Positions 4,345 to 64,000 of a stretch of DNA of 64,000 nucleotides are shown piece after piece (the first letter of the stretch is position 1; each line of letters starts with the position of its first letter). The translations under genes and the position numbers were made by a program. The notes under the pieces were generated by a model that searched no databases, was not told the origin of the DNA, and saw only the letters and a list, made by a program, of their open reading frames with translations. Source of the stretch: a virus. The stretch lies in IMG/VR virus record IMGVR_UViG_3300045971_000277, positions 37,897 through 101,896 of that record; one strand, 5' to 3'.

Positions 4345-7300
4345 ATGAAGAAGCTACTGCTACTGGCTCTGCTGATCCCCGTGCAATCAATTGCGGACGG
4401 CGTCTTCACGGAAGATGCAAACGTGGTCCTGCATTGGGTGGCGGACGAGTGGAACATGATCAGGTTCCCTGAGGCGTTCACGGCTGGACAGTGGCCCAGT
4501 GGGACGGTTTCTGCGACGGTGACCGACAACTTCGCGGCGGCCCCGAACGGGACGATGACTGCCGCGAGGGTTGTCTGGGCTGCCGGTGCGCCTCGCTACG
4601 TGGTATCCGCCGCAGTAGTTGAGGGCTCCACGGTACACACGGCATCTATGTGGCTGAAGTCCAACACCGGAGCCAACCAAGTCTTGAGGCTGTTTTCCTG
4701 TGGGGCGCTGCCTCTGGTCGATACCACCGTCACCACAACTTGGCAGCGTTTCTCGGTTACTTGCACCACCACAGCTACCACCGGACTGAAGCAGGTGGTT
4801 GGGGTCTACTCGGCCACCACCAACGTCGCGGCCGACATTCTGATCTGGGGCGCTCAACTGGTCCGTGGCGACCGTGCGCTACCGTACAAGAGCCCTCCGG
4901 TGGCGAACCTGCTGGCAAGCCCGAAGGCAATTGGAACTTCTCCTTGGCTCTCTTCCGGGTGCGCTTTTGGTAACTGGAGCGCCTTGGTGGCTACGCAGAA
5001 TTCGGTGGCGTCCCCAGACGGTGTTGTCACGGCCACCAAGTTGGCTTTGGGCGTTACAGGGAATAGTTCTAACTCGGTGTGCCAAGTTCTTTCGGCCACC
5101 CCATCGGCTATCTACAAGTTAGGCGTGTGGCTGAAGGGCGATGGCACTCTCTCGTCCGTACAGATGGGGTTTAACACCGGTAACTCTGGGGTCTTGGTGT
5201 TAAACAACAGGCAGACGAAGACTTGTCCCCTCACGACTGCGTGGAGTTACTGCGAAGGCATCGGCTACACGTTCCCCGCCAGCGGGTCAAACCAGATCGA
5301 GCCATACATCCAGGTCGATTCCATCCAGCCGTCTGGGGCCGCCTTCTACGCTTGGGGAGCGACACTCACCCGCGCCGACCAGCAAGGCGACACGCTGGTG
5401 ATGAACGGCACGGTGCCTGTCTCCAACTCCACGCTGTTCCCCAGCGGGTACGGTACTGGACGTAGGGGGGTGGGGCCATATGCTGCGGGCGCACCCCTTT
5501 TTAATTCAGACATCCCGGTTGCCACCAATACGGCCGCCTTTACCGTATGTGTGGCTTACTACCCACAAAGAGATATTGCAAATAACGAATTACTAATAAC
5601 CACTGGGCAATACAACGTCAGTGGTTTTCAACTGTGGCATCGACCTGACCCTGCCGGGTATCAGGGGGTTTTCAACACCTCGACGGCGGGTCTAATAACG
5701 CAATCTATGGCAGCTATACCCTCTATGCGGGGACTGTCGGTGCTCTGTGGGGGCGTGAACGGCAGCAACCAGTACGTTAAAAGCAACAGCGGGTTGACTT
5801 ACACTACAGCTTCACCAAAAACAACTCCCGGAACTCTCACCAAGATTGGCATCGATGCCGGAGTCGGTAGTGGTGGTAGCACCCTCATTTACGAAGTCTA
5901 CGTCACCAACTCCGCGTGGAACGAAGCCACCGTGACGGCCCTGCAATCGGCTGCACTCGCACAGGGCGATCCCACGAAGCCGCTGTTCACGCCTGACGCC
6001 AACACCGTCCTGCACCTGAAGGGGAACGACTACACGGGCGGCAGTGTTTGGGCGGGCGACTACGGCAGCGTCACGAAAGTCGGAACCGTGGGGTACAGCG
6101 ACAGCTTCGTACCTCCGATCCAGAACCGTCTTGCCCGCCAAGCGTATGGTCCGTTGTCTTCATCGAATTACCTCTCTCTAGGTGCTGGTGCCGACGTTCT
6201 CGACTTTGCTGGCGACTTCACGGTGTGCGCCGTGGCTACGTCCCCAGTGGGACTTACCGCCCCTATTGTCGGATCTGGAAACTTTGGGGCTTCAGGTGCT
6301 GGGTGGGACATGGGCGTTACTTCGTCTTCCGGTTACATCAACACCTTTGCGACGGGGTCCACCATCACTGGTACGACCACCAACGCTCTGACTGTGCCGG
6401 GAGGCGGGCCTACCGTAGTTTGTGCAGGCCGGGCTGGTAGCACGCAGTACGTTAAGGCAAACGGTGGAACAACCGTATCGTCAGCGGGGGCAAAGACTAC
6501 CCCAGATACTACCACCCCCTCTTACATAGGTAAGCGTGGCGATGCTGGCGGTGGTTTCTTCTCTGGACAAGTTCTAGAAGTCTACGCCACCACCTCCGCA
6601 TGGAACGAAACGACCGTCAGCAACCTCCAGAAGAAGGCCCTCGGCATGATCCTGCCCACGGGTCAGACTCTTTCAGTCACCCGTGCTGGCCCGCAAACGG
6701 TTGCAGTCCCGACCGCTACTGGCCCTGCTGTCGTTACGGTTCCTGCGGGCGCTCCTGCCTTGGGTCCTGACGGGATCGAGGTGTACGGGACGAGGGTGAA
6801 TTCGATCCTGCAAAGCCAGACCATCGCTTCGGGTACCAACTACATCGCACCGTGGACAGCAAACCTGACCACCGTCACCGAAATCGCCGGGGGTCCAAGC
6901 GGATCTGGTTCATGGGCGGAAGTCACCTCCACTAACGTACAAGGCGGGACCGACGCAGGGACAGTCACCATCCCGTCCAACGCCGTCTACACGTTCTCTA
7001 TCTGGGCGTCGAAGTCGTCTGGCACCGGGTACGCCGGGTTGATGGGTATGACTTCCAACAACATAGCAGCATCGTCATGCTCTTGCGGGCGCAGCGATGG
7101 GGGTGCGTGTACGGCCCAGAACACGGGGCCTGCTGGTACTTCATACTGCTACTTCACCCTCCCAGACCTAGGGACCACTCCGATCCGTATGTGGCTTACG
7201 GTAACTGGGCCGTCGGCTGCTACGGCCCCCAGACTGCTCCTTCTGCCGGGGCAGTATCCGACCGCTGTCGGCACCACCCGTTTCTGGGGCGCACAAGTAG

Positions 7301-18578: not shown

Positions 18579-19211
18579 ATGACAAAGCAATGCAGAATAT
18601 GCCACAAAGATAAAGACATAACCGATTTTTACAAAAGTAAGATAACGCGTGACAAGCTGATGCACGAGTGCAAGATATGTACTAGCGAGGCTAGGAAATT
18701 AAATTATAGGTCAAATCCAGAGATTAAAAAGGCAGCGGCACTCAAGTGGTATTATGAAAACCACGAAGAAGCGAAAAAGCGTAATAACGACTATCGATGG
18801 AAGAATCGCGATGTGGCGGTAAAGCGGACTAAAGACTGGTGTGACGCGAATCGTGACTATAAGAATCAGTATGATCGTGAATACTATCAGCGCAATAAGC
18901 TAGCGTATTATTTAAGGAACGAGAATCGAAGAGCGGCTAAGATTGCACAGTCAGACCCGCCCGGATGGAAGGCAACAGTACCGTGGTGGCGAGAGGTGAT
19001 GGAACGCAACAAAAATCGTTGTTCGTACTGTAATAAAGAGTTTGGTAAGGAACGCTTAGATAGACCAACAATGGAACATAAGATACCACTATCACGAGGC
19101 GGCAAGCATTCTGTCGACAATATCGTACCGGCATGCCGTGCCTGTAACGATTCAAAGTCAGTCAAGACGCCAGACGAATGGCGTCAACCGGTTTATTTCA
19201 TGAAGTCATAA
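18579..19211 (+). CDS. Free-standing HNH homing endonuclease
   Basis: The 210-residue product starts with a zinc-ribbon pair (CRICHKDK ... CKICTSEARK), then a long basic and aromatic helix-rich middle (WYYENHEEAKKR, YQRNKLAYYLRNENRRA). It ends in an HNH nuclease motif: CSYCNKEF, MEHKIPLSRGG (the catalytic His region), and VDNIVPACRACNDSK with the Asn and the second Cys pair. Such enzymes cut cognate alleles lacking the gene and spread by repair. Base composition is clearly more AT-rich than the flanking structural genes, supporting mobile origin. It is inserted cleanly between two virion genes, 42 bases after one stop and 3 bases before the next start. Confidence 0.9.
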   Translation: MTKQCRICHKDKDITDFYKSKITRDKLMHECKICTSEARKLNYRSNPEIKKAAALKWYYENHEEAKKRNNDYRWKNRDVAVKRTKDWCDANRDYKNQYDREYYQRNKLAYYLRNENRRAAKIAQSDPPGWKATVPWWREVMERNKNRCSYCNKEFGKERLDRPTMEHKIPLSRGGKHSVDNIVPACRACNDSKSVKTPDEWRQPVYFMKS

Positions 19212-53653: not shown

Positions 53654-54681
53654 GTGGCCGCCTGCTCATTGTTAGCCTCAACCATTTCATCCTTCGGCCC
53701 GGTCTTACCCTCCGGATCAGTGTCGAGTACCACAGCCTCCTTAAGGATCAGGCTGCGCATAGCATCTGCGTACTGATGCATATTGGTCAGGCTGGAGTCG
53801 CCTTCGATCCCATGGAACCGGCCCCACGCACGCCAGATCAAGTGATGGATGGTGCGCTGGGTGACCGAAGCTGAAATAACCGACAGGATAGTGTCGCGAT
53901 TTGAGTAGCCTGACTGTTTGATGAATTCGGCCTCAGACTTGAACATGCTGACGTTTCCCTGATAAAGCTCAACCGCCTTGTACTGCCGCCACGATTCAGG
54001 TAGAGGCGTCATCAGGCAGAGTTCACCCAAGTGCTGCAAGATGAGCGCCGCCACGCGCTCCTCGCGCTGATGTGTGAGGCTATCTTCGGCCTCACGCTCA
54101 TACGTGGACCGCATCTGCGCCAGCGTCTCAAACCCGGCCGACACAGCGAGATCGTCATTGATCTCTGGCTGCTTGAACTCTTCCTGCTTCGACGTCAGCT
54201 TGCCATTAACGTACTGAGCAATGAGGTCGAGGTTAAGCGCCTCCATGTAAACACGGAAGAAGCGCGGGACGACGATAGCGACGTCTGGCTTCCACTTGAC
54301 TTCAGGCTCAAAATAGCCCTGCGCCATAATCTCATACCGGTCCTGTACCAGCTTATACTGGACCTGTATCCACGACAGGATATCGCGGTCAACCTTGGCG
54401 GCCTTCGCTGCGTCGCGCACTACACCAAGCACGACGGGCTCGTAGAACTGTGCGGCCCCGCCCAAGACGTTGATGATGCGGACCCGCATCTCGTCCACCG
54501 GGGTGCCCTGACGGAACCCCTTGTACGCCTTGTCCAATACCGCCTTTGACAGCTTCTTGCTGGTTTCGGCCCAGTACTGGTCTAGCTTGGGCTCTAGCTC
54601 GTCCTTTGGGACTAGCGTCCTAAACTGGTACGGCGTGGCCTGCTCAAAAGCTTCAAATGACGCTGCGGTCGGTTCGGACAT
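53650..54681 (-). CDS. Trigger-factor-like ribosome-associated chaperone lacking the PPIase domain
   Basis: The 343-residue product resembles trigger factor (Tig) in two regions. Residues 20-145 match the ribosome-binding domain: VPKDELEPKLDQ, then GFRQGTPVDEMR at 55-66 (the family loop is GFRxGxxP, which contacts ribosomal protein L23), VVLGVVRDAAKAAKVD, and a 'PEVKW' strand. Residues 172-290 match the C-terminal substrate arm: QPEINDDLAVSAGFETLAQMRSTYEREAEDSL followed by long helices. The FKBP-type PPIase domain of about 100 residues is missing; only about 25 residues join the two parts. An acidic C-terminal tail follows. It overlaps the Rad50-like gene by 29 bases. Function inferred: co-translational folding of phage proteins. 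An alternative is a structural fold without ribosome binding. Confidence 0.65.
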   Translation of the reverse strand: MSEPTAASFEAFEQATPYQFRTLVPKDELEPKLDQYWAETSKKLSKAVLDKAYKGFRQGTPVDEMRVRIINVLGGAAQFYEPVVLGVVRDAAKAAKVDRDILSWIQVQYKLVQDRYEIMAQGYFEPEVKWKPDVAIVVPRFFRVYMEALNLDLIAQYVNGKLTSKQEEFKQPEINDDLAVSAGFETLAQMRSTYEREAEDSLTHQREERVAALILQHLGELCLMTPLPESWRQYKAVELYQGNVSMFKSEAEFIKQSGYSNRDTILSVISASVTQRTIHHLIWRAWGRFHGIEGDSSLTNMHQYADAMRSLILKEAVVLDTDPEGKTGPKDEMVEANNEQAAT

Positions 54682-56764
54682 TGCTGGTCTCTATCCTCGT
54701 GATGTGTTGGTTTTTAACTGCGGTCCATATTTGGTTATACGAAATGTGGTCGCGGATAAACGGGCTATGGGTGATAACAAAAATGGTGCCCCAGTTAGAC
54801 GCCTTGATGGATTCGATGAATCTGAGGGCAGACGCGGACGAGGCTTCGTCGAACATCCCGAAAATTTCATCCAATGCTAGCATGTTAGTGCCGCCGCCCT
54901 GCTGTACCGCTAGCTGGTTGAATGCACGGATAATGGCGAGTACGATCTGCTGGCGTTCGGCCCCGCTATATAGGGCAAGCTCGACTTCGTCCTTGGGCCC
55001 CTCGCGGACGAAGATCTGGATCTCCGCCACGATGTCGTCGTCGGTTTTTGCGTTTGCCCGCTCTTTCCATGGGCTAAACCAGACCTGGACTTGGCCATCC
55101 GTGAGGATCCTGATGTTGTCTGCGATTAAGTCGTTCAGCTTGGCAATGATGCTGCCGAACTTATATGCCTTGATGCCCTTATCGCCCATCCCCTTAATAA
55201 CGGCTGCAAGAACGGCGACGCGGGCTTCGGCCTCGCTCAGCTTCTCTTTACCATCTGCGATGGACTTGACCAGCTGAACCCGCCTTGCCGCGACTTCTTC
55301 GTGCCGGTCTAATATATCGACGAGGCGCGCGATTTCTGCGTTTATGCTGACACAGCCGCTGTCTAGTTTATGTGCGTCTTCGCGACAACTTTGGATACTG
55401 GCTTCGGTCGTCTTTATTACATTGGCCAGCCGCGTAATTTCGGATGAAAACCCGGCCGCTTCAGACGCTAAGCTACCAATCGTCAGCTGTACGTTATATT
55501 GCTTAGTTCTAATTTCACTGAAGGCTTCATCGCGGAGCCGCGTCGTCTCGGCCTCATCCTTGGCCCACTGCTCAGTTAATTCTAACGTAATGTTATCGAC
55601 GTCGTTCTTATATACTTCAATCTCTGCCTCTAAGCGGGCCTGATAGTCCAGACTCGTGGCGGCCGACACATGTGACCCGCACCGATCACACTGGTCGCCG
55701 CCCCCTGGCTTTTCTACTAACTTGTGGGCCGCCTGATTCCACATCCATCTGACGCGCTCTAGATTATCGCGGATCTCTTTGGTCCGGTCGACTTTCGGGA
55801 CCGTTGACGGTGCGGCCAGACTAGCATCAAGTCGCTGTAGCTCGTACTTAGCCTCTAGTATCTTTACATTGACGGCGTAGGCAGATCCGTTAAGTTTATT
55901 TAGGTCAGCCTTCGCGCCAGCTAAGTCTGCACTGGCCGTATCAATATAGTCTTTGATCCCAGATGACCACGACCGATTCGTCTCAAGTTGCTCACTTAGC
56001 TGCATCACGCGCAGGCTGTGTTGGCCAGCCTCGTCTTCGGTGATCGCAGGTGGTGTCGCATTCAGTACGGCTTCTGCACCCTCAACGCCAGTCTTGTGTA
56101 TGCGAGCCGACGTCTCAGCCAGCGCGAATCTGGTGCGAGCCTCGACGCAGCACCGGTCCCAAACCGACATGTCGGTCAATTCGGTGATGAGTTGCATACG
56201 GTCTTTATTCTTGCCACTAATGAAGGCCAGACCGCGCTGTTGTGCCAGATATGACGTCGCCAGGAACTGGTCGTACGACATACCCAGTATGGCCAGGACC
56301 CGCTTGCGTGTGTCTAGCGTCTTGGTCCCACGTAGGTCGGTCCACTTGGCGTGGACTAGCTCTTCAAAGTATAAGTCGGTTCCGTCGAGCCGGTCGCCGT
56401 TTTCATGAATCGCACACGGTAGCGTCTCGGTCGCCTTATCCGGATACTCGCCCTTCCACCCACGTGTCATCGTCACCCGATATTCGCGCTGGTCTTGCAG
56501 GCGGAATCGGACTTGGGCCCAGCATCCACGCGACCATACTGAGTTGACGATGTCGGTGTCGCCCCGGCCCGTTGGGTTCTCGCCAAACAGTATATGCGTT
56601 ATGCTATTGATCAACGACGTCTTGCCAGCCCCGTTAGCCGTTGGTGGGGTCCGGTCGTTATTGATGCCATGAATGACGACGACGCCTTGCTGGTCCAACG
56701 ACAGAGTCTGAACAAGCCCGTTACTAAACAAGCCTGTTGCGTTACAACTCAATAATGTCAGCAT
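54653..56764 (-). CDS. Rad50/SbcC-like (gp46) recombination ATPase
   Basis: The 703-residue product has all landmarks of the SMC-type nuclease ATPase: Walker A NGAGKTS (44-50), a QQRGLAFISGK region after the first lobe, and coiled coils on both sides of a CDRC zinc hook (359-362). The signature YSGAERQQ (599-606), Walker B MLALDEIF (628-635) and an H-loop ITHSPF (about 664-669) follow. With the Mre11-like partner two genes upstream it would process DNA ends for recombination-dependent replication, as T4 gp46/gp47. The start directly follows the stop of the small gene between them. Confidence 0.9.
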   Translation of the reverse strand: MLTLLSCNATGLFSNGLVQTLSLDQQGVVVIHGINNDRTPPTANGAGKTSLINSITHILFGENPTGRGDTDIVNSVWSRGCWAQVRFRLQDQREYRVTMTRGWKGEYPDKATETLPCAIHENGDRLDGTDLYFEELVHAKWTDLRGTKTLDTRKRVLAILGMSYDQFLATSYLAQQRGLAFISGKNKDRMQLITELTDMSVWDRCCVEARTRFALAETSARIHKTGVEGAEAVLNATPPAITEDEAGQHSLRVMQLSEQLETNRSWSSGIKDYIDTASADLAGAKADLNKLNGSAYAVNVKILEAKYELQRLDASLAAPSTVPKVDRTKEIRDNLERVRWMWNQAAHKLVEKPGGGDQCDRCGSHVSAATSLDYQARLEAEIEVYKNDVDNITLELTEQWAKDEAETTRLRDEAFSEIRTKQYNVQLTIGSLASEAAGFSSEITRLANVIKTTEASIQSCREDAHKLDSGCVSINAEIARLVDILDRHEEVAARRVQLVKSIADGKEKLSEAEARVAVLAAVIKGMGDKGIKAYKFGSIIAKLNDLIADNIRILTDGQVQVWFSPWKERANAKTDDDIVAEIQIFVREGPKDEVELALYSGAERQQIVLAIIRAFNQLAVQQGGGTNMLALDEIFGMFDEASSASALRFIESIKASNWGTIFVITHSPFIRDHISYNQIWTAVKNQHITRIETSNVRTDRSVI

Positions 56765-57010
56765 TTACGCCTTTGCTATTATATCGAGCATTTCAGCCGA
56801 AAGGGTAATCTCACCATTATCGACTAGTATCTGTACTATGGGTGGCCAGATTATGACATCGTCGTCAGCGAATGTTTCGATGATCTCCATCATGATTTCG
56901 CCGTCGTCTTCTAGAATCTTATTGTCGAGCCACCGGCTAATCGCATCCATGTATTGCGGGGCAATGCCCACGATCTCTTCTACATTATGCAGTTCTAGCG
57001 GGCGTCCCAT
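56765..57010 (-). CDS. Small acidic protein between the nuclease subunits
   Basis: The 81-residue product is acidic (ILEDDGEIMMEIIETFADDDV) and helical. It overlaps the upstream Mre11-like gene by 26 bases and ends directly before the Rad50-like gene, so it is translationally coupled to both. T4-like phages also carry tiny ORFs between 47 and 46 (for example 46.1-type). No family was recognised; an accessory to the nuclease complex is a guess. Confidence 0.5.
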   Translation of the reverse strand: MGRPLELHNVEEIVGIAPQYMDAISRWLDNKILEDDGEIMMEIIETFADDDVIIWPPIVQILVDNGEITLSAEMLDIIAKA

Positions 57011-58124
57011 TTTCTATCGTATTTATAATATCTTCGCCTTCACGCATTAATGCATCTGGATCAATGTCGGGCAGCTTGCCTGAGCTTACAAACACCTTCC
57101 AATCTTCCATCGGCGTCTTCGTCGCTTTCAACTCAGGTATCAACTCTTTAACGGCCGTGTATGGCTCCGTGATGATCTTAAGCGAACGCGCCCCCGTCTG
57201 TTCTCTAAGTGACCGCTCTAAGGTTGAAACCTTACTTATTGAACATAATTGGGCGGCGTCTCCTCTTAGTATTATCCTAACAATATGACCTTCTAGGGCG
57301 CTGCCATTCTTACGTACCACATCAGATTCAACCTGCTTGAACGAGCGGTCGGCTCCAACGTTGTCGTCTAGTTCGATAAATCGCGGGGCTCCGCTATCGA
57401 TATACTGGACCATCATCGAAGTAGCTTTGTGCGCCGTGTTTATCTCGATATACATAAAGCCACGAGCTTGATCGCGATCACCCCAATTGTGCTGGAGCGC
57501 CGCACCAATATAGTGGGCTTCGACGTTACGCGTCGGCAGTTTCTGCCGCACGTGGTTGTCGCCGCCCAAGACTAGCTGGAAGTCACTTGAATCCAGTACA
57601 GATAGATCAAACCCGTGTAGAGCTTTCTGACCGTTTTGCTGGAGCGAGCCCAGCGCCATATCGTGGAACATACAGAGGTTGAACGTATTACGATGCACCT
57701 GTGGCCTAAACTTGTGTCCGGCCGGGACCGCCGTGATAGTCAGGTTTGATCCGACTCGATAATCGCGGGCCTCGTCCATGATGACGAGGTTTGACTGCAT
57801 GTCGCGGTCCCAAATCTTTACGTGATTGAGGTTGTGCTGACTATGCATTCCTTTAGATTCTCTGTCATGATTTCCGACGAGTGCCGCGACCATTGCATGG
57901 TCAGCTTTACGTGCCAATGCCGCGTCCCGGATAGCTCGTAGGCCACTGTCGGGGTTCTTGTCGGCGAACCAATCGCCCCCAAACAGCCAACAATGTACGT
58001 CCCGCTCGATCCCGATCTGTAACGATAGCTCGTCGACACGCTGAATGTCCTCTAGCGTTAGTCCGTTATTATACCGGTCGTAATGAATGTCGCTATAGGC
58101 CAAAAGCCTCAGGGTCTCTTCCAT
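56985..58124 (-). CDS. Mre11/SbcD-like (gp47) nuclease
   Basis: The 379-residue product is a metallophosphoesterase. Its motifs in order are SDIHYD (11-16), LFGGDWF (48-53), GNHD (84-87), MFHDM (152-156) and GGDNH (187-191), giving the two-metal site residues D12, H14, D51, N85, H154, H191. The C-terminal 170 residues would contain the capping and Rad50-binding region. It is the exonuclease/endonuclease partner of the Rad50-like protein. The start overlaps the ThyX stop by 16 bases. Confidence 0.88.
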   Translation of the reverse strand: MEETLRLLAYSDIHYDRYNNGLTLEDIQRVDELSLQIGIERDVHCWLFGGDWFADKNPDSGLRAIRDAALARKADHAMVAALVGNHDRESKGMHSQHNLNHVKIWDRDMQSNLVIMDEARDYRVGSNLTITAVPAGHKFRPQVHRNTFNLCMFHDMALGSLQQNGQKALHGFDLSVLDSSDFQLVLGGDNHVRQKLPTRNVEAHYIGAALQHNWGDRDQARGFMYIEINTAHKATSMMVQYIDSGAPRFIELDDNVGADRSFKQVESDVVRKNGSALEGHIVRIILRGDAAQLCSISKVSTLERSLREQTGARSLKIITEPYTAVKELIPELKATKTPMEDWKVFVSSGKLPDIDPDALMREGEDIINTIENGTPARTA

Positions 58125-58969
58125 ACAGCCTCGTTCGGCAGCATTTTGCGATACTGGACCCAGCCACGGAAGTTGCCACGGAAGCCGTGGTCGTAGGACG
58201 CGACGGCTTGGTGCTCAAACGGGCTCATGTGACCACCCGACAGAAGCGAATCATGCATCGCGATGTCCTTGTCACGGTTTGCATTCTCGTCGCCGTGAGT
58301 CACATATGACACGCGAGCACAGCGGGCCACAGAACAGCAGATTGCATCTTTAAACCAAAGCGACCCGAATTCGACATCTTCGGGAATGGCCGACCAGTCG
58401 ATACTGGCACGTTCGTCGGCTGTTATGTACGGCATGTGCCAGTCGCCCGGATGGAGCGTAACGGGCACGCTGTCGCGCATTGCGTATTTCATCTGGTGCG
58501 CCAGCACCTGGATTTCAGGCTGGGCCGCTTCGTCGCACCGTAGGTTAAAGAAGTTATCAAACTCTGTTGCCGTTATAACGACGCTAATGTGGGCCCATGG
58601 CTCCAAGATACGGTTCACGGTCTGCTTGTGTAAACCTAAGGCGACTAGCGCATTGGCGCTTTCAATTGCTCTGTCGCGAGCATTCAACCACAGAGTGCAG
58701 GCGTCTGCCTTACTGGCTGTGTCGATCTCCTCCTTTGCTGCCATTCCACGCTGATTCTTGCCCCAATATGACGGAATCGCGGGATCATTTCGGATCCGTT
58801 CGATCATCTTCTCAATCGGTATCGCACGCGACGATGCGGCATTCCGGCTGAACACGCGGTGCGTGAGTACCTCACTATGTATAAATCTAGGATATTCCAA
58901 TTCGAACGTTGTCAGCCGCGTTTTATTCAGCGTGTTGACCGAATCACAGATTATCTTAGCCGTTATCAT
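58109..58969 (-). CDS. thyX: ThyX-like flavin-dependent thymidylate synthase
   Basis: ATG 58969 was chosen (286 residues); a TTG at 58990 would add seven. The substrate/FAD motif reads THRVFSRNAASSRAIP (about residues 36-51), matching the ThyX signature RHRxxSxNxxSxR except that the first Arg is Thr. This is seen in a divergent ThyX family common in phages. Later conserved segments include EPWAHISVVITATEFDNFFNLRC and LSGGHMSPFEHQA near the end. The enzyme would methylate dUMP to dTMP with methylene-THF and NAD(P)H for phage DNA synthesis. It overlaps both neighbours. Confidence 0.85.
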   Translation of the reverse strand: MITAKIICDSVNTLNKTRLTTFELEYPRFIHSEVLTHRVFSRNAASSRAIPIEKMIERIRNDPAIPSYWGKNQRGMAAKEEIDTASKADACTLWLNARDRAIESANALVALGLHKQTVNRILEPWAHISVVITATEFDNFFNLRCDEAAQPEIQVLAHQMKYAMRDSVPVTLHPGDWHMPYITADERASIDWSAIPEDVEFGSLWFKDAICCSVARCARVSYVTHGDENANRDKDIAMHDSLLSGGHMSPFEHQAVASYDHGFRGNFRGWVQYRKMLPNEAVWKRP

Positions 58970-59165
58970 TTGTATATGTCCACATGCCAAGTGGGTCGAT
59001 CTTTAGTATCTTGCAGGCGTCTTTACATATTTGGCAGCCACAAGCCACGCCTAGTGGCCATTTTCTAACAACTACGTCTTTATCGTTAAGCCCAATGCGA
59101 GTTTCAAAATTATGCTGGTTTACTATACGATGTAGTAGTTGTTCCGCCCTACTCGTCTTCCGCAT
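58956..59165 (-). CDS. Small cysteine-motif protein
   Basis: The 69-residue product has a C-x-C-x2-C-x3-C cluster (C42, C44, C47, C51) in CGCQICKDACKILK, suggesting metal binding, with a basic N-terminus. It overlaps both neighbours (17 bases upstream, 14 downstream). The frame is fixed by tight coupling in the operon. Function unknown. Confidence 0.5.
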   Translation of the reverse strand: MRKTSRAEQLLHRIVNQHNFETRIGLNDKDVVVRKWPLGVACGCQICKDACKILKIDPLGMWTYTNDNG

Positions 59166-59800: not shown

Positions 59801-60056
59801 CACTATACTCCGCGCTCTTGTACTGTTTCACGATTTCACGATACTGGCGATTATTCTCTAGGTGCTTTAGCAGCGTCGCCACCGTAGTCGCGCTCTGGTT
59901 GACGCGGGCGTAGACCTCATCTGCCAATGCATTGAGTAGCGGGTCCTGTATTAGTTTTACCCGATCAACCAACCAGTTACACGTATCAAGCAGTGCCACG
60001 TTCTGCCGTAAACGGCGCACCATATCAATTAAATCTGCTTCTGAAATATTACTCAT
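59793..60056 (-). CDS. Small helical protein, unknown
   Basis: The 87-residue product shares one base with the polymerase stop (TAATG). It is fully helical (DLIDMVRRLRQNVALLDT, PLLNALADEVYARVN, TVATLLKHLENNRQYREIVKQY). It is translationally coupled to the polymerase; a replication accessory is conceivable but nothing in the sequence shows it. Confidence 0.5.
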   Translation of the reverse strand: MSNISEADLIDMVRRLRQNVALLDTCNWLVDRVKLIQDPLLNALADEVYARVNQSATTVATLLKHLENNRQYREIVKQYKSAEYSDE

Positions 60057-63000
60057 TAGGCCGCCAGTAGAAGCTTGAAGTTTTCCATGCCGCGTAATGG
60101 ATCAAGGATCGTGGGAGTGGCATTGAATACCTGCTTTAGGTTCGTTACCACACCATATCCGGGAATGTTGACGGATTCTGACACCTGCAGGTTAAGTATT
60201 TTCGCAATCGCCTGCGCCTTTTCGGCTGTATCGGTAATAAACCCACGCACGGGAAGCCCGCCTTGCACCGTGAACACGCTCTTGACTTTGACTTCCATCA
60301 CACCGGGCCGGAAGTCTGTGATTTCAGTCGTGCCCCTCAATACCGCGATGCCGTGTTCCTGTAAACTGGGCCAGATAGCTGATGCCGTAGGACTCCACAC
60401 GCGCACCGACATGCCGCTGAACTGGTCTTGTATGTGAAGGACTAAGTAGGGGTCGCCCTTCTTCGTTGTCTTCATCTCCTTCTTTGTCAGGAGTCCGATG
60501 ACAACACACCCGTGCTCTTCATCCATTTCCTGCACCTGCGACGGTGTTATTACTGGGGCATCCGCGTGTAGCATGCCGAAGTATTTCATATAAGTCGCAA
60601 TGGGGTGGCCGGAGACGTAGAAGTTTAGTGTTTCACGTTCGAATGCCGAGATTTCGATCTTGTCCCACTCCTGATTCGTAATGGTTTCTGCCGCCTTCGC
60701 CATTACCTTAAATTCAAAGTCTTCGATCGCTACCTTCTTCTTTGCCTTCGCCACCTTCTGTATAATTTCAACGATGGCGGCCTTGTCGCGGTTCGTCAGG
60801 TTCTCGTCAAACTTAAACGATCCAGCCTTGACGAGGTTATCAATGACGGTCTTGGTGACTGACTTAATCAGATATGTGCTTGGTAGCTGCGGGCTCTTTT
60901 CGTAATCCCATTCTGGCAGCTTGTGCTTCTTGAATAGCGGATGCGTGGTCGGAATCGGCTCCAGCTGCGATACGCGGCGCACGAAGTCTATATAGCTCGC
61001 ATACGGCCCGCCGCGTTCGCGTTCCCACAGGATCGCCATGAGGGCTTCGATGCCGGTCGAGCGCACCGAATACAAACCCATGTAGATAACTTTGCCATCG
61101 GTCGAGAACTCTGGGCCGGACACGTTGATGTCTGGCGGGCGGATTTCAAATCCCTTCTGCATGATGCTACGTAGGAGCACGGCCAGCTTGTCATTCTTGC
61201 CCGTATTAGCATTCAGCAGAGCCGCGTAATACTCAAGCGGATAGTGGGCCTCCAAATAGGCCGTCACGTATGAAATCCGTGAATACCCGCAGTTGTGGAC
61301 GACGAACCCGTTTGCGATGAAATTTGGGTCCTGTTCCATCGTAAGGTCGAATACATGTTCGGACCGACCAAGATCTTCGACCGAATCTACTGCAGCATCA
61401 TATATTACTGGAATGTTCCAATTACTTATTATTCCACTATGATCCTCGACGTCCTGTGCACTGAGTGCAATATTATCTTCAAAACCGACCATACCAACGT
61501 TCGTCGTTTCTGCGATGGCTGCCGAAGCAGAACTGACATCAAGCCGGTTACGTGCATCGATTGTGGCGTCACCATTACGGTCGGGAAATGGGATGGAAAA
61601 CATCTTTGCATTTTGTGCATGCGCAAGGCCGACCCGTACTACGTCCATCGCGAGTTGATTGAGCGGCTTCATCGAGATGGGCACAGTAATTCTGCCATCA
61701 TAAAGCTGGTCCGATTCAGTGCAACCCCAGCTTCCCTCACCCGACACCTGCGCGAATGGGGGCTTAGCGGCAATCGTGTCTATGCCATTACCCCAAACGT
61801 CGCCGCTGCGATCGTTGAGATTGTTGACAGCGGCATTACGTCCCAACTGGCCATCGCCAAACGACTGAATGAGCGTGGCATTGTTATCAATCCGCGTAGT
61901 ATTTTTAAGTTCCTTCGTCGCGGGCGTGGGGGCAGAACGCTTATCGACGCTAAGATCGCACGAAGTAAGATGGGCGTTGAGTTCAGAACTGCGCTGTTCA
62001 GTCGTGATAGAGACAAGTGTGTTTTCTGTGCCTCCGCCGATAGACTCTCTTTGCACCACATCATCCCATTCGATATTTGTGGTCACCATGAAGCATGGAA
62101 TCTCGTTGCGGTGTGCCGACGCTGCCATACTGAGGTCGAGATCGGCCGACGTAGCCCTGTACTTAACATGTTTCAAAAGCTGCCCACTGCAAAACTGCGT
62201 AGTGTCTTTATAAAGTTTTTCGGCGGTCATGTGAGAGTGGTCGGGTGTGCAAACAAGGCTATCGCCACCAGCATTGACTCGGACCACGGGACGGACGCCT
62301 TGGTCCAAAACCTTAACGACACGATTCTTGAACAACTCACCAGTTGTCTCTCTGACTGACCAAACGTGTTCGCCTTCACGAACCTCCACGATCGGGACCA
62401 AACCACGGTCGCATGTTGCTACTAGGGCTCCCCGTTCCGTGCATGCGTGACCACGGTTCCAGCCGTATCGGGCGAAACCGGCGAGGCGACCGGCGAGCCA
62501 GTCCATCCACTCCTGCGTGTGCCCGTTCTTGATACCACCCGCGATTAGCTTGCCCTGTGCAATGGCAAACTTGGCTGCATCCTTCTTACCGATGGCGGCG
62601 CGATACTCATCAGCCTCAGTATCATTAAACCCGGCGATAATCTTCGACATCTCACTGATCTGCTCTTGGTAAATCGGCAGACCGAATGAGTCGCTCAGGA
62701 TTTCCTTGAGCGAAGGATGCCACTGGTCCACGTCCTGCTGTCCATGGCGCCGCTTGATGTACGTATCAGCGATAGAGTCGCCTTCGCCAATCTTCTTGCC
62801 GTCCTTGTCTAGCAGGACTTCTGGCTTCATCGGTCCCGGTCGATACAGGGCGTTGAGCGCCATCAGTAGTTCGAAGTTGACTGGCTTAAGCTGCTTAGCC
62901 ATACTGCGCATGCCTTCCGAGTCATATTGGAAGACCGAGACGAACTCGCCGCTGCAGACCAACTCATGTGCCTTCTTGTCGTCGAACGGAATCGCGTGGG

Positions 63001-64000
63001 GGTCTATGGTGACGCCGTGGTTAACCGCTATGTATTTGACGGCGTCGTTGATCACATCCATCGTGCGCAGACCTAACATGTCCAGCTTAAGTAGGCCGAG
63101 GTCTTGCACGTCCTTCATGTCGAACTGCGTCGCCCTGTACCCGTCGTGGTCCTTTGTGAGCGGCACGTACTGGTCAATCGGGTTGTTCGATATCACAATA
63201 CCGGCGGCGTGGACCGACGTATTGCGATGGACACCTTCGAACGACTTAGCCACCGCAATCCACTTATCGTGCGGCGCCATCAATGATCGTGCCTTGTCGT
63301 TCTCCTCCAGTAGATCCTCGATCGAGTCGTCCTTCGTGACCTCATCCCCGAGTAGCTTGCTGACGGCCCGCCGCACCGGGGCCGGGATATTCAGTACCAT
63401 ACCGGCGTCGTCAATTGACTTCTTCGCCAGCATCGACTGGAACGTGATGATCTGCGCGACATGGTCGGCGCCATACTTGCCGACGATGTAGTTGAGCACA
63501 TCAAGCCGGTACCGCTGGCTGATGTCGGTATCAATATCGGGAAGGTCTTTGCGGCCTTCGTTAATGAACCGGTAGAACGGGATCTTCCACCGGAATGGAT
63601 CCATCGCGGTGATGCCCAGCACATAGCAGACGAGCGCGCCGACGGACGAGCCGCGTCCAAACGGCGGAATCATGTCGTGGTGACGACGGATGAAGTTTAC
63701 CACATCTGATATAATAAGGAAGTAGCTGGAGAATGACTTGCGCTCGATCGTGTCAAGCTCCATATTGAGCCGCTCGACGTATATGGGATCTGTATCGAGC
63801 CCGAGCCGATTCAGCCCCTCCCAGCATTCCATAACGAGCTTCTGATGGGACGATTCAGCGTCCCACTGCAGGCCCTTATCATCCTTGAATAGTGGGATGA
63901 TATGCTTACCTAACGTAAACCCGTAGTCCTCAATACTATTGGCGATCCGTACGCTATTCAGGTAGGCTTCTTCCGGGTAGCCTTCCTTAGTGACGAGCCC
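60056..64000 (-). CDS. dnaE: DNA polymerase III alpha subunit (DnaE-like), intein-containing, 5' end beyond the window
   Basis: The minus-strand frame is open from the window edge (64000) to 60056: 1314 residues, of which 384 are an intein. The N-terminal PHP region is not in view, and an internal Met at 63832 is not the true start. Catalytic motifs, numbered from 63832, are GRGSSVGALVCY (59-70), LPDIDTDI (97-104, two aspartates) and KLDMLGL (249-255, third aspartate). The fingers region ends NRGHA before the intein and resumes CGYSRISYVTAYLEAHYP after it. Further C-terminal are helix-hairpin-helix-type and OB-fold segments (GCVVIGLLTKKE). It is the replicative polymerase of the phage; family C polymerases are less common in phages than family A or B. 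Confidence 0.92.
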   Translation of the reverse strand, partial: GLVTKEGYPEEAYLNSVRIANSIEDYGFTLGKHIIPLFKDDKGLQWDAESSHQKLVMECWEGLNRLGLDTDPIYVERLNMELDTIERKSFSSYFLIISDVVNFIRRHHDMIPPFGRGSSVGALVCYVLGITAMDPFRWKIPFYRFINEGRKDLPDIDTDISQRYRLDVLNYIVGKYGADHVAQIITFQSMLAKKSIDDAGMVLNIPAPVRRAVSKLLGDEVTKDDSIEDLLEENDKARSLMAPHDKWIAVAKSFEGVHRNTSVHAAGIVISNNPIDQYVPLTKDHDGYRATQFDMKDVQDLGLLKLDMLGLRTMDVINDAVKYIAVNHGVTIDPHAIPFDDKKAHELVCSGEFVSVFQYDSEGMRSMAKQLKPVNFELLMALNALYRPGPMKPEVLLDKDGKKIGEGDSIADTYIKRRHGQQDVDQWHPSLKEILSDSFGLPIYQEQISEMSKIIAGFNDTEADEYRAAIGKKDAAKFAIAQGKLIAGGIKNGHTQEWMDWLAGRLAGFARYGWNRGHACTERGALVATCDRGLVPIVEVREGEHVWSVRETTGELFKNRVVKVLDQGVRPVVRVNAGGDSLVCTPDHSHMTAEKLYKDTTQFCSGQLLKHVKYRATSADLDLSMAASAHRNEIPCFMVTTNIEWDDVVQRESIGGGTENTLVSITTEQRSSELNAHLTSCDLSVDKRSAPTPATKELKNTTRIDNNATLIQSFGDGQLGRNAAVNNLNDRSGDVWGNGIDTIAAKPPFAQVSGEGSWGCTESDQLYDGRITVPISMKPLNQLAMDVVRVGLAHAQNAKMFSIPFPDRNGDATIDARNRLDVSSASAAIAETTNVGMVGFEDNIALSAQDVEDHSGIISNWNIPVIYDAAVDSVEDLGRSEHVFDLTMEQDPNFIANGFVVHNCGYSRISYVTAYLEAHYPLEYYAALLNANTGKNDKLAVLLRSIMQKGFEIRPPDINVSGPEFSTDGKVIYMGLYSVRSTGIEALMAILWERERGGPYASYIDFVRRVSQLEPIPTTHPLFKKHKLPEWDYEKSPQLPSTYLIKSVTKTVIDNLVKAGSFKFDENLTNRDKAAIVEIIQKVAKAKKKVAIEDFEFKVMAKAAETITNQEWDKIEISAFERETLNFYVSGHPIATYMKYFGMLHADAPVITPSQVQEMDEEHGCVVIGLLTKKEMKTTKKGDPYLVLHIQDQFSGMSVRVWSPTASAIWPSLQEHGIAVLRGTTEITDFRPGVMEVKVKSVFTVQGGLPVRGFITDTAEKAQAIAKILNLQVSESVNIPGYGVVTNLKQVFNATPTILDPLRGMENFKLLLAA
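61292..62443 (-). other. Intein in the polymerase (384 residues)
   Basis: The intein starts at Cys (codon 62441-62443) after NRGHA and ends at Asn (61292-61294), followed by Cys+1 of CGYSR. Block A is CTERGALVATCDRG; block B is CTPDHSH (intein residues 65-71); blocks F and G are VFDLTMEQDPNFIANGFVVHN (364-384), with the penultimate His and terminal Asn. All splicing residues are intact. Residues of about 110-340 show no LAGLIDADG, HNH or other endonuclease motif in this frame and are low in recognisable structure. That part of the DNA encodes an HNH enzyme on the other strand. Confidence 0.9.
61439..62359 (+). CDS. HNH homing endonuclease encoded antisense within the intein
   Basis: This 306-residue frame (ATG 61439) has two N-terminal zinc ribbons (LCTECNI/CDGC and CIDCGV/CILC), a helical HTH-like middle (SAIIKLVRFSATPASLTRHLREWGL; SQLAIAKRLNERGI) and a full HNH motif at 62018-62128. 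The HNH residues are CVFC, LHHIIPFD, WNLVAVCRRCH. The frame is open back to GTG 61295, and ATG 61355 has AAGG eight bases upstream; I chose 61439 because the zinc ribbon starts there and earlier codons oppose splicing blocks F/G. Its codons lie exactly opposite intein codons, and none of its 26 Leu or 19 Ser codons is TTA, CTA or TCA. The last 76 or so residues oppose the N-terminal splicing domain including block B. No clear promoter was seen. Confidence 0.8.
   Translation: MILDVLCTECNIIFKTDHTNVRRFCDGCRSRTDIKPVTCIDCGVTITVGKWDGKHLCILCMRKADPYYVHRELIERLHRDGHSNSAIIKLVRFSATPASLTRHLREWGLSGNRVYAITPNVAAAIVEIVDSGITSQLAIAKRLNERGIVINPRSIFKFLRRGRGGRTLIDAKIARSKMGVEFRTALFSRDRDKCVFCASADRLSLHHIIPFDICGHHEAWNLVAVCRRCHTEVEIGRRSPVLNMFQKLPTAKLRSVFIKFFGGHVRVVGCANKAIATSIDSDHGTDALVQNLNDTILEQLTSCLSD

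Follow-up and report, generated by a model that had tools for sequence, protein, structure and literature searches.

An HNH endonuclease gene lying antisense, in exact codon register, within the intein of a viral DnaE-type DNA polymerase

The DNA analysed here comprises positions 37,897-101,896 of the virus record IMGVR_UViG_3300045971_000277, that is, a window of 64,000 nt forming the right end of this 101,896-base record. At the end of the window lies a polymerase gene on the minus strand that contains an intein, and within the limits of the intein a gene for an HNH endonuclease is encoded on the plus strand. The features needed for what follows are listed below; all positions are those of the window.

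60056-64000, minus strand: DnaE-type DNA polymerase III alpha gene (the host gene), recognised by profile matches; its N-terminus is cut off by the contig end.
61292-62443, minus strand: intein of 384 residues, running from Cys1 to His-Asn and followed by a +1 Cys; Pfam Intein_splicing, E 1.7e-13, and PDB mini-inteins at both ends.
62219-62443, minus strand: N-terminal portion of the Hint domain, comprising intein residues 1-75 and holding blocks A and B.
61292-61399, minus strand: C-terminal Hint part with blocks F and G, intein residues 349-384; TIGR01443.
61377-61406, plus strand: possible sigma-70-like promoter, separated by 33 nt from the ATG of the HNH gene; a weak candidate of the quality expected by chance.
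61439 (ATG)-62359 (TGA), plus strand: antisense HNH endonuclease gene, 306 codons and a stop, in exact register with the polymerase codons.
61457-61618, plus strand: two CxxC...CxxC pairs (putative zinc ribbons), residues 7-60 of the HNH protein, kept in all three phages discussed below.
61610-61924, plus strand: helical, HTH-like region, residues 58-162; AF2 pLDDT mostly 70-85, with sub-threshold Clr5/HTH matches.
62018-62128, plus strand: HNH core (CVFC..HHIIP..WNLVAVCRRCH); Pfam and PHROG matches.
62219-62356, plus strand: last 46 codons of the HNH gene, opposite intein residues 30-75 (block B), with conservation in both frames.

The polymerase is encoded in a single frame that stays open through the intein and extends over at least 1314 codons of the window; a reading of the gene as a fractured gene with a split intein failed, host gene and intein not being in two separate ORFs. 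Near the polymerase, on the same strand (window 54653-58990, minus), are genes for an AAA_23 ATPase, a calcineurin-like phosphoesterase and a ThyX-type thymidylate synthase, the first two of which, judged by their order and families, are an SbcC/SbcD-like pair.

As regards the intein itself, the Pfam match is above its cut-off, the TIGR01443 profile for the intein C-terminus is also matched, and the splicing motifs are intact: Cys1 (CTER...), TPDH in block B, and EHVFDLTMEQDPNFIANGFVVHN followed by Cys+1 (VVHN/C, the slash marking the junction). The motif criteria for a class 1 intein (Cys1 or Ser1, TxxH in block B, C-terminal His-Asn and a +1 nucleophile) are thus satisfied in the window. Solved mini-inteins in the PDB align to the two ends only, and searches of Pfam, TIGR, PHROG and PDB gave no significant profile match, and no endonuclease profile, for the sense-strand middle. 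Intein homing endonucleases are in the majority LAGLIDADG and in some cases HNH enzymes, carried as in-frame domains; the identification of this element as a canonical homing-endonuclease intein was rejected, the criterion of an in-frame endonuclease between blocks B and F not being satisfied. A group I intron or other RNA at the locus was also rejected, with no Rfam match at E<=1 in 61000-62800 and the sense frame fully open. The AF2 model of the intein, for which only three sequences were available, was uninformative (pLDDT 27). That the intein splices itself is inferred from its sequence alone.

The plus-strand protein matches Pfam HNH with 25.6 bits against a cut-off of 21.4, and PHROG HNH families with E values down to 5.6e-9; a CxxC-flanked core with His, Asn and His is present, so that the criterion for an HNH protein is met. 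Its AF2 model, again based on only three sequences, is of moderate quality (pLDDT 53). Overall the predicted structures were weak, and a Foldseek search of the PDB gave no match. Cutting or nicking of DNA by this protein is likewise an inference, there being no cleavage data. Two further HNH endonuclease genes occur in the same contig, at window 18579-19211 (plus) and at L095 81-668 (plus), with Pfam HNH values of 1e-12 and 4e-15; both are free-standing, and their architecture is unlike that of the antisense gene.

A search with the intein led to two relatives, L004 (IMGVR_UViG_3300032516_000004) and L005 (IMGVR_UViG_3300023174_000101), from other metagenomes, and an independent search with an alignment of the HNH proteins recovered the same two loci. 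In both, the intein occupies the same polymerase site and bears a full antisense HNH ORF in identical register, while the polymerase frame is uninterrupted (1539 aa in L004 and 1529 aa in L005). The class 1 motifs are the same as in the window, except that the +1 residue is Ser, and the Pfam HNH domain is matched in all three loci. The three HNH proteins are 42-45% identical pairwise and keep all twelve CxxC cysteines, the HHIIP motif and an ATG at the equivalent position. In L005 (antisense gene at 5079-6056, minus) Asp takes the place of the central Asn of the HNH motif (WDL, in IWDLVTVC), and this protein may differ in activity from the enzymes of the window and of L004. Three diverged phages thus have the same arrangement, with intact intein motifs and an intact HNH protein in exact antisense register; as the three loci are separate assemblies, an assembly error is very unlikely.

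With the two proteins in this register, any TTA, CTA or TCA codon in the HNH gene would be a stop in the polymerase frame, and no such codon is found in any of the three genes. For the window this means none among 26 Leu and 19 Ser codons, and the probabilities of such an absence by chance, calculated from local codon usage and treating codons as independent, are 6e-7 for the window, 4e-13 for L004 and 9e-3 for L005. Codons that would stop the polymerase frame are therefore avoided in the HNH genes. The longest open stretch in exact antisense register in each dnaE gene, as compared with the next longest, is 358 against 96 codons in the window, 326 against 64 in L004 and 384 against 241 in L005. 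The length of an ORF was nonetheless rejected as evidence in its own right, because antisense ORFs of about 240-260 codons without family match exist in these genes; one of these, of 261 codons at window 62706-63491 (plus), lies over the polymerase N-extein in another register and is likely to be a chance product.

An initial, sequence-only reading of this stretch had proposed an intein with intact blocks on the minus strand at 61292-62443, an HNH gene at 61439-62359 of the plus strand with its core at 62018-62128, and an exact register free of TTA and CTA in 26 Leu codons and of TCA in 19 Ser codons. All of this held, down to identical coordinates and counts, and the profile search of the plus-strand frame that it had set as a test came out in its favour. 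Its description of the HNH gene as lying within the intein also held and can be refined: the gene is not limited to the intein middle but spans intein residues 30-335, block B included, where (see below) both frames are constrained.

Which of the two strands is under selection can be judged from the pattern of substitutions, as in this register the wobble (third) base of an antisense codon is the first base of a sense codon. Over intein residues 76-335, amino acid identity is 45-47% for the antisense protein as against 20-26% for the sense protein, and divergence at antisense position 3 is 0.65-0.71, as against 0.41-0.47 at position 1. Codons differing at antisense position 3 and not at position 1 outnumber the reverse class by 99:26, 83:32 and 95:34 in the three pairs, an excess of variation at the antisense third position with p values of 3.2e-11, 2.2e-6 and 7.3e-8. 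The sense identity to be expected from antisense conservation alone was computed by holding the antisense residues fixed and redrawing their codons; it came to 0.19-0.25, compared with 0.20-0.26 observed (z 0.9, -1.6 and 3.0), whereas in the converse calculation, with a sense-only expectation, antisense identity lay 10-14 z units above that expected. The antisense protein is thus under purifying selection over residues 76-335. Conservation of that protein alone nearly accounts for the similarity seen in the sense frame, which implies that selection on the sense middle, beyond the need to stay open, is slight or absent; a small extra sense constraint, suggested by the L004-L005 pair (z 3.0), cannot be ruled out. 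The initial reading of the sense middle as a merely tolerated linker is accordingly supported, its 20-26% identity being about what antisense conservation and codon choice would give. The comparison with homologous inteins, in which the antisense frame might have been found broken and the sense middle conserved, also favours that reading: in these inteins the antisense frame has stayed intact, and no conserved domain is present in the sense middle.

Of two alternative explanations, the first is refuted by these results and the second made very improbable. In the first, the antisense ORF is a chance product of codon bias with a fortuitous HNH-like motif, for which it can be said that another antisense ORF without family match (that of 261 codons) exists in the same gene; against it stand the presence of the same HNH protein in three diverged phages, the antisense z values of 10-14 and the wobble p values down to 3e-11. 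In the second, it is the sense middle that functions, as an endonuclease or linker domain, and similarity on the antisense strand merely mirrors it. The slight excess of sense identity over expectation between L004 and L005 speaks for this, but there is no profile match to the sense middle, sense identity is near the antisense-only prediction, and it is the third antisense position that shows the wobble.

In the segment with block B (residues 30-75) this pattern of wobble is lost or reversed, and both proteins are conserved beyond their single-frame expectations (sense z 3.9-5.5, antisense z 2.0-3.9). It is likely that both are constrained here; the evidence is good without being overwhelming, because the sites are few and not fully saturated.

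The insertion point is shifted by one codon among the three loci, reading GHA/CGYS in the window, GH/SAGY in L004 and GH/SIAY in L005; slippage of the junction during homing, or separate insertions, could explain this. (The junctions lie at 62443/62444 and 61291/61292 in the window, and at 5000/5001 in both L004 and L005.) Intein-less GFNRAHAASYAM alleles of the site occur in other viral DnaE genes. A search for similar insertion sites gave 64 further viral DnaE loci, all without a visible intein at this point, a typical reading being GFNRAHAASYAMISYVTAY. The locus satisfies the criterion for a homing gene, which asks for a self-splicing element as its host, conservation of the site of that element, and alleles that lack it. 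Phylogeny, on the other hand, does not show homing or horizontal movement, because only three members were found. Element and extein distances are similar in these three. In L234 and L235, the nearest further viral DnaE genes from the final scan, the site is free of an intein, but their distance is too great for vertical and horizontal descent to be distinguished.

It might be argued that the HNH gene, although real and selected, is a separate selfish or regulatory gene sheltering in the intein, which homes or nicks elsewhere and does not move the intein. Free-standing HNH genes are indeed common in phages, and this contig has two more. However, the gene lies at the same place inside the intein in all three phages, and pattern scans and tblastn found no free-standing homologue of this family in IMG/VR, annotated phages, plasmids or species genomes; scanning for the HNH core gave, besides L004 and L005, only unrelated HNH proteins, none of them nested in an intein. 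This explanation is therefore considered unlikely. Less likely still is that the intein is no longer mobile and that the HNH gene is kept for some other use, such as regulation of the polymerase by an antisense transcript or exclusion of intein-less rival phages. The antisense orientation would permit RNA interference with the polymerase mRNA, and the copies in the three phages have long since diverged (42-45% identity), but conservation is at the level of protein, with HNH and zinc residues kept, and antisense RNA alone would need none of these.

Promoter scans upstream of the HNH gene in the three loci revealed nothing strong or conserved, scores being at chance level. A candidate similar to that of the window, together with AGAGG before the ATG, is present in L004, while L005 has neither, and two of the HNH genes are without a Shine-Dalgarno sequence; initiation may be leaderless or host-specific. 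Independent expression, and mobility conferred by the endonuclease, were part of the original proposal and remain inferences, no strong promoter having been identified.

To see how common such an arrangement may be, other inteins were surveyed. The motif of the intein C-terminus gave at least 120 viral intein-like loci; of the 120 searched for HNH in six frames, 15 contained an HNH domain (one of them weak), always in the sense frame, and none had HNH in an antisense or other out-of-frame position. Nor was a nested antisense HNH found in 15 intein-bearing regions of annotated phages, where the sole HNH match, in a Corynebacterium phage, was a separate annotated gene; three positive controls were recovered in this part of the survey with E below 1e-23. 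Combined, 135 other phage inteins have about 15 in-frame HNH domains and no antisense ones. The ribonucleotide reductase locus of Campylobacter phage F355 (L228, 1709-4293) has an ORF with a mini-intein, followed by an opposite-strand homing-endonuclease-like gene just outside the ORF; it was rejected as a parallel case, the reversed gene adjoining the intein-bearing ORF and not lying inside it.

Several known systems share some part of this architecture. In-frame HNH inteins are alike in having a Hint domain with an endonuclease between blocks B and F and in interrupting a replication enzyme at one of its conserved motifs, but there the endonuclease is part of the intein polypeptide, whereas here it is a separate polypeptide, encoded on the other strand, with the 3' end of its gene over block B. 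In the ShiLan domain (Genes 2025, PMC11855218), HNH is inserted out of frame into a methylase of mycobacteriophages; as here, a phage HNH gene without RBS is concealed in a host gene that keeps an open frame, and homing is suggested. In ShiLan the HNH gene shares the strand of its host gene but not its frame, and the insert stays in the host protein, as the authors found no splicing domain; with an HNH gene on the opposite strand and a complete intein with full Hint domain, the window element was rejected as an insertion of that type. Group I introns whose homing endonuclease genes run antisense (Didymium Dsq.L2066 and Dir.S956-2; PMC9548176) are likewise mobile self-splicing elements with the homing gene on the opposite strand, where it is transcribed separately. 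However, these are RNA elements in rDNA that need no open sense frame, while the splicing element of the window is a protein, so that the DNA of the antisense gene has to be readable without stops on the sense strand too. Finally, in fractured genes a free-standing endonuclease lies between the halves of a split intein (Dassa et al. 2009, cited in PMC3229294; compare the RecA-like locus of Proteus phage Pm5461). An intein and a separately coded endonuclease likewise share one site there, but host gene and intein are broken around the endonuclease gene, in contrast to the contiguous intein here, which shares its bases with that gene.

No antisense endonuclease in an intein was found in the literature searched, in keeping with the original supposition that no such intein had been described, but bioRxiv preprints and most subscription papers were outside its scope. 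Excluded in particular was bioRxiv 2025.01.02.630785, on actinophage inteins of 'non-canonical architecture'. The arrangement may therefore be undescribed; if that preprint has antisense cases, the architecture has already been reported, and this family would still be new.

The reading considered most likely is that the intein is mobile and that its homing endonuclease is encoded by a separate gene antisense to it, it being understood that transcription, cutting, homing and splicing are all inferred. The HNH protein would be made from its own plus-strand transcript, would recognise the empty polymerase site and cut or nick it, and repair would then copy the whole intein into the cut site. After translation of the polymerase mRNA the intein would splice itself out, carrying in its middle the translated antisense sequence as an essentially unselected insert, tolerated because it has no stops. 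Weighing against this reading are the lack of transcript, cleavage or splicing data, the replacement of the HNH Asn by Asp in L005, and the weakness of the structure models. A bolder formulation, which also seems more probable than not, is that of a mobile intein of a kind not yet described: a protein-splicing element with an independently expressed antisense homing endonuclease, in a stretch of DNA selected on both strands, whose block B segment codes, in exact antisense register, for two proteins that are both conserved and functional.

An intein and its endonuclease are generally regarded as sharing one frame, and hence as being made in equal amount; in the present arrangement the dosage of the endonuclease would no longer be tied to that of the polymerase, while polymerase and intein would limit what the HNH gene can encode. 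If the reading is true, splicing and mobility are split between two strands, in a protein counterpart of the group I introns with antisense homing genes. The locus is also one of the few clean examples of antisense coding in exact register: the substitution pattern reveals, for each codon, on which strand the constraint lies, and where it lies on both. It suggests that endonucleases in inteins are missed where only one strand is annotated, and it makes it possible to test how a protein-coding element can take up a homing gene and remain unbroken.
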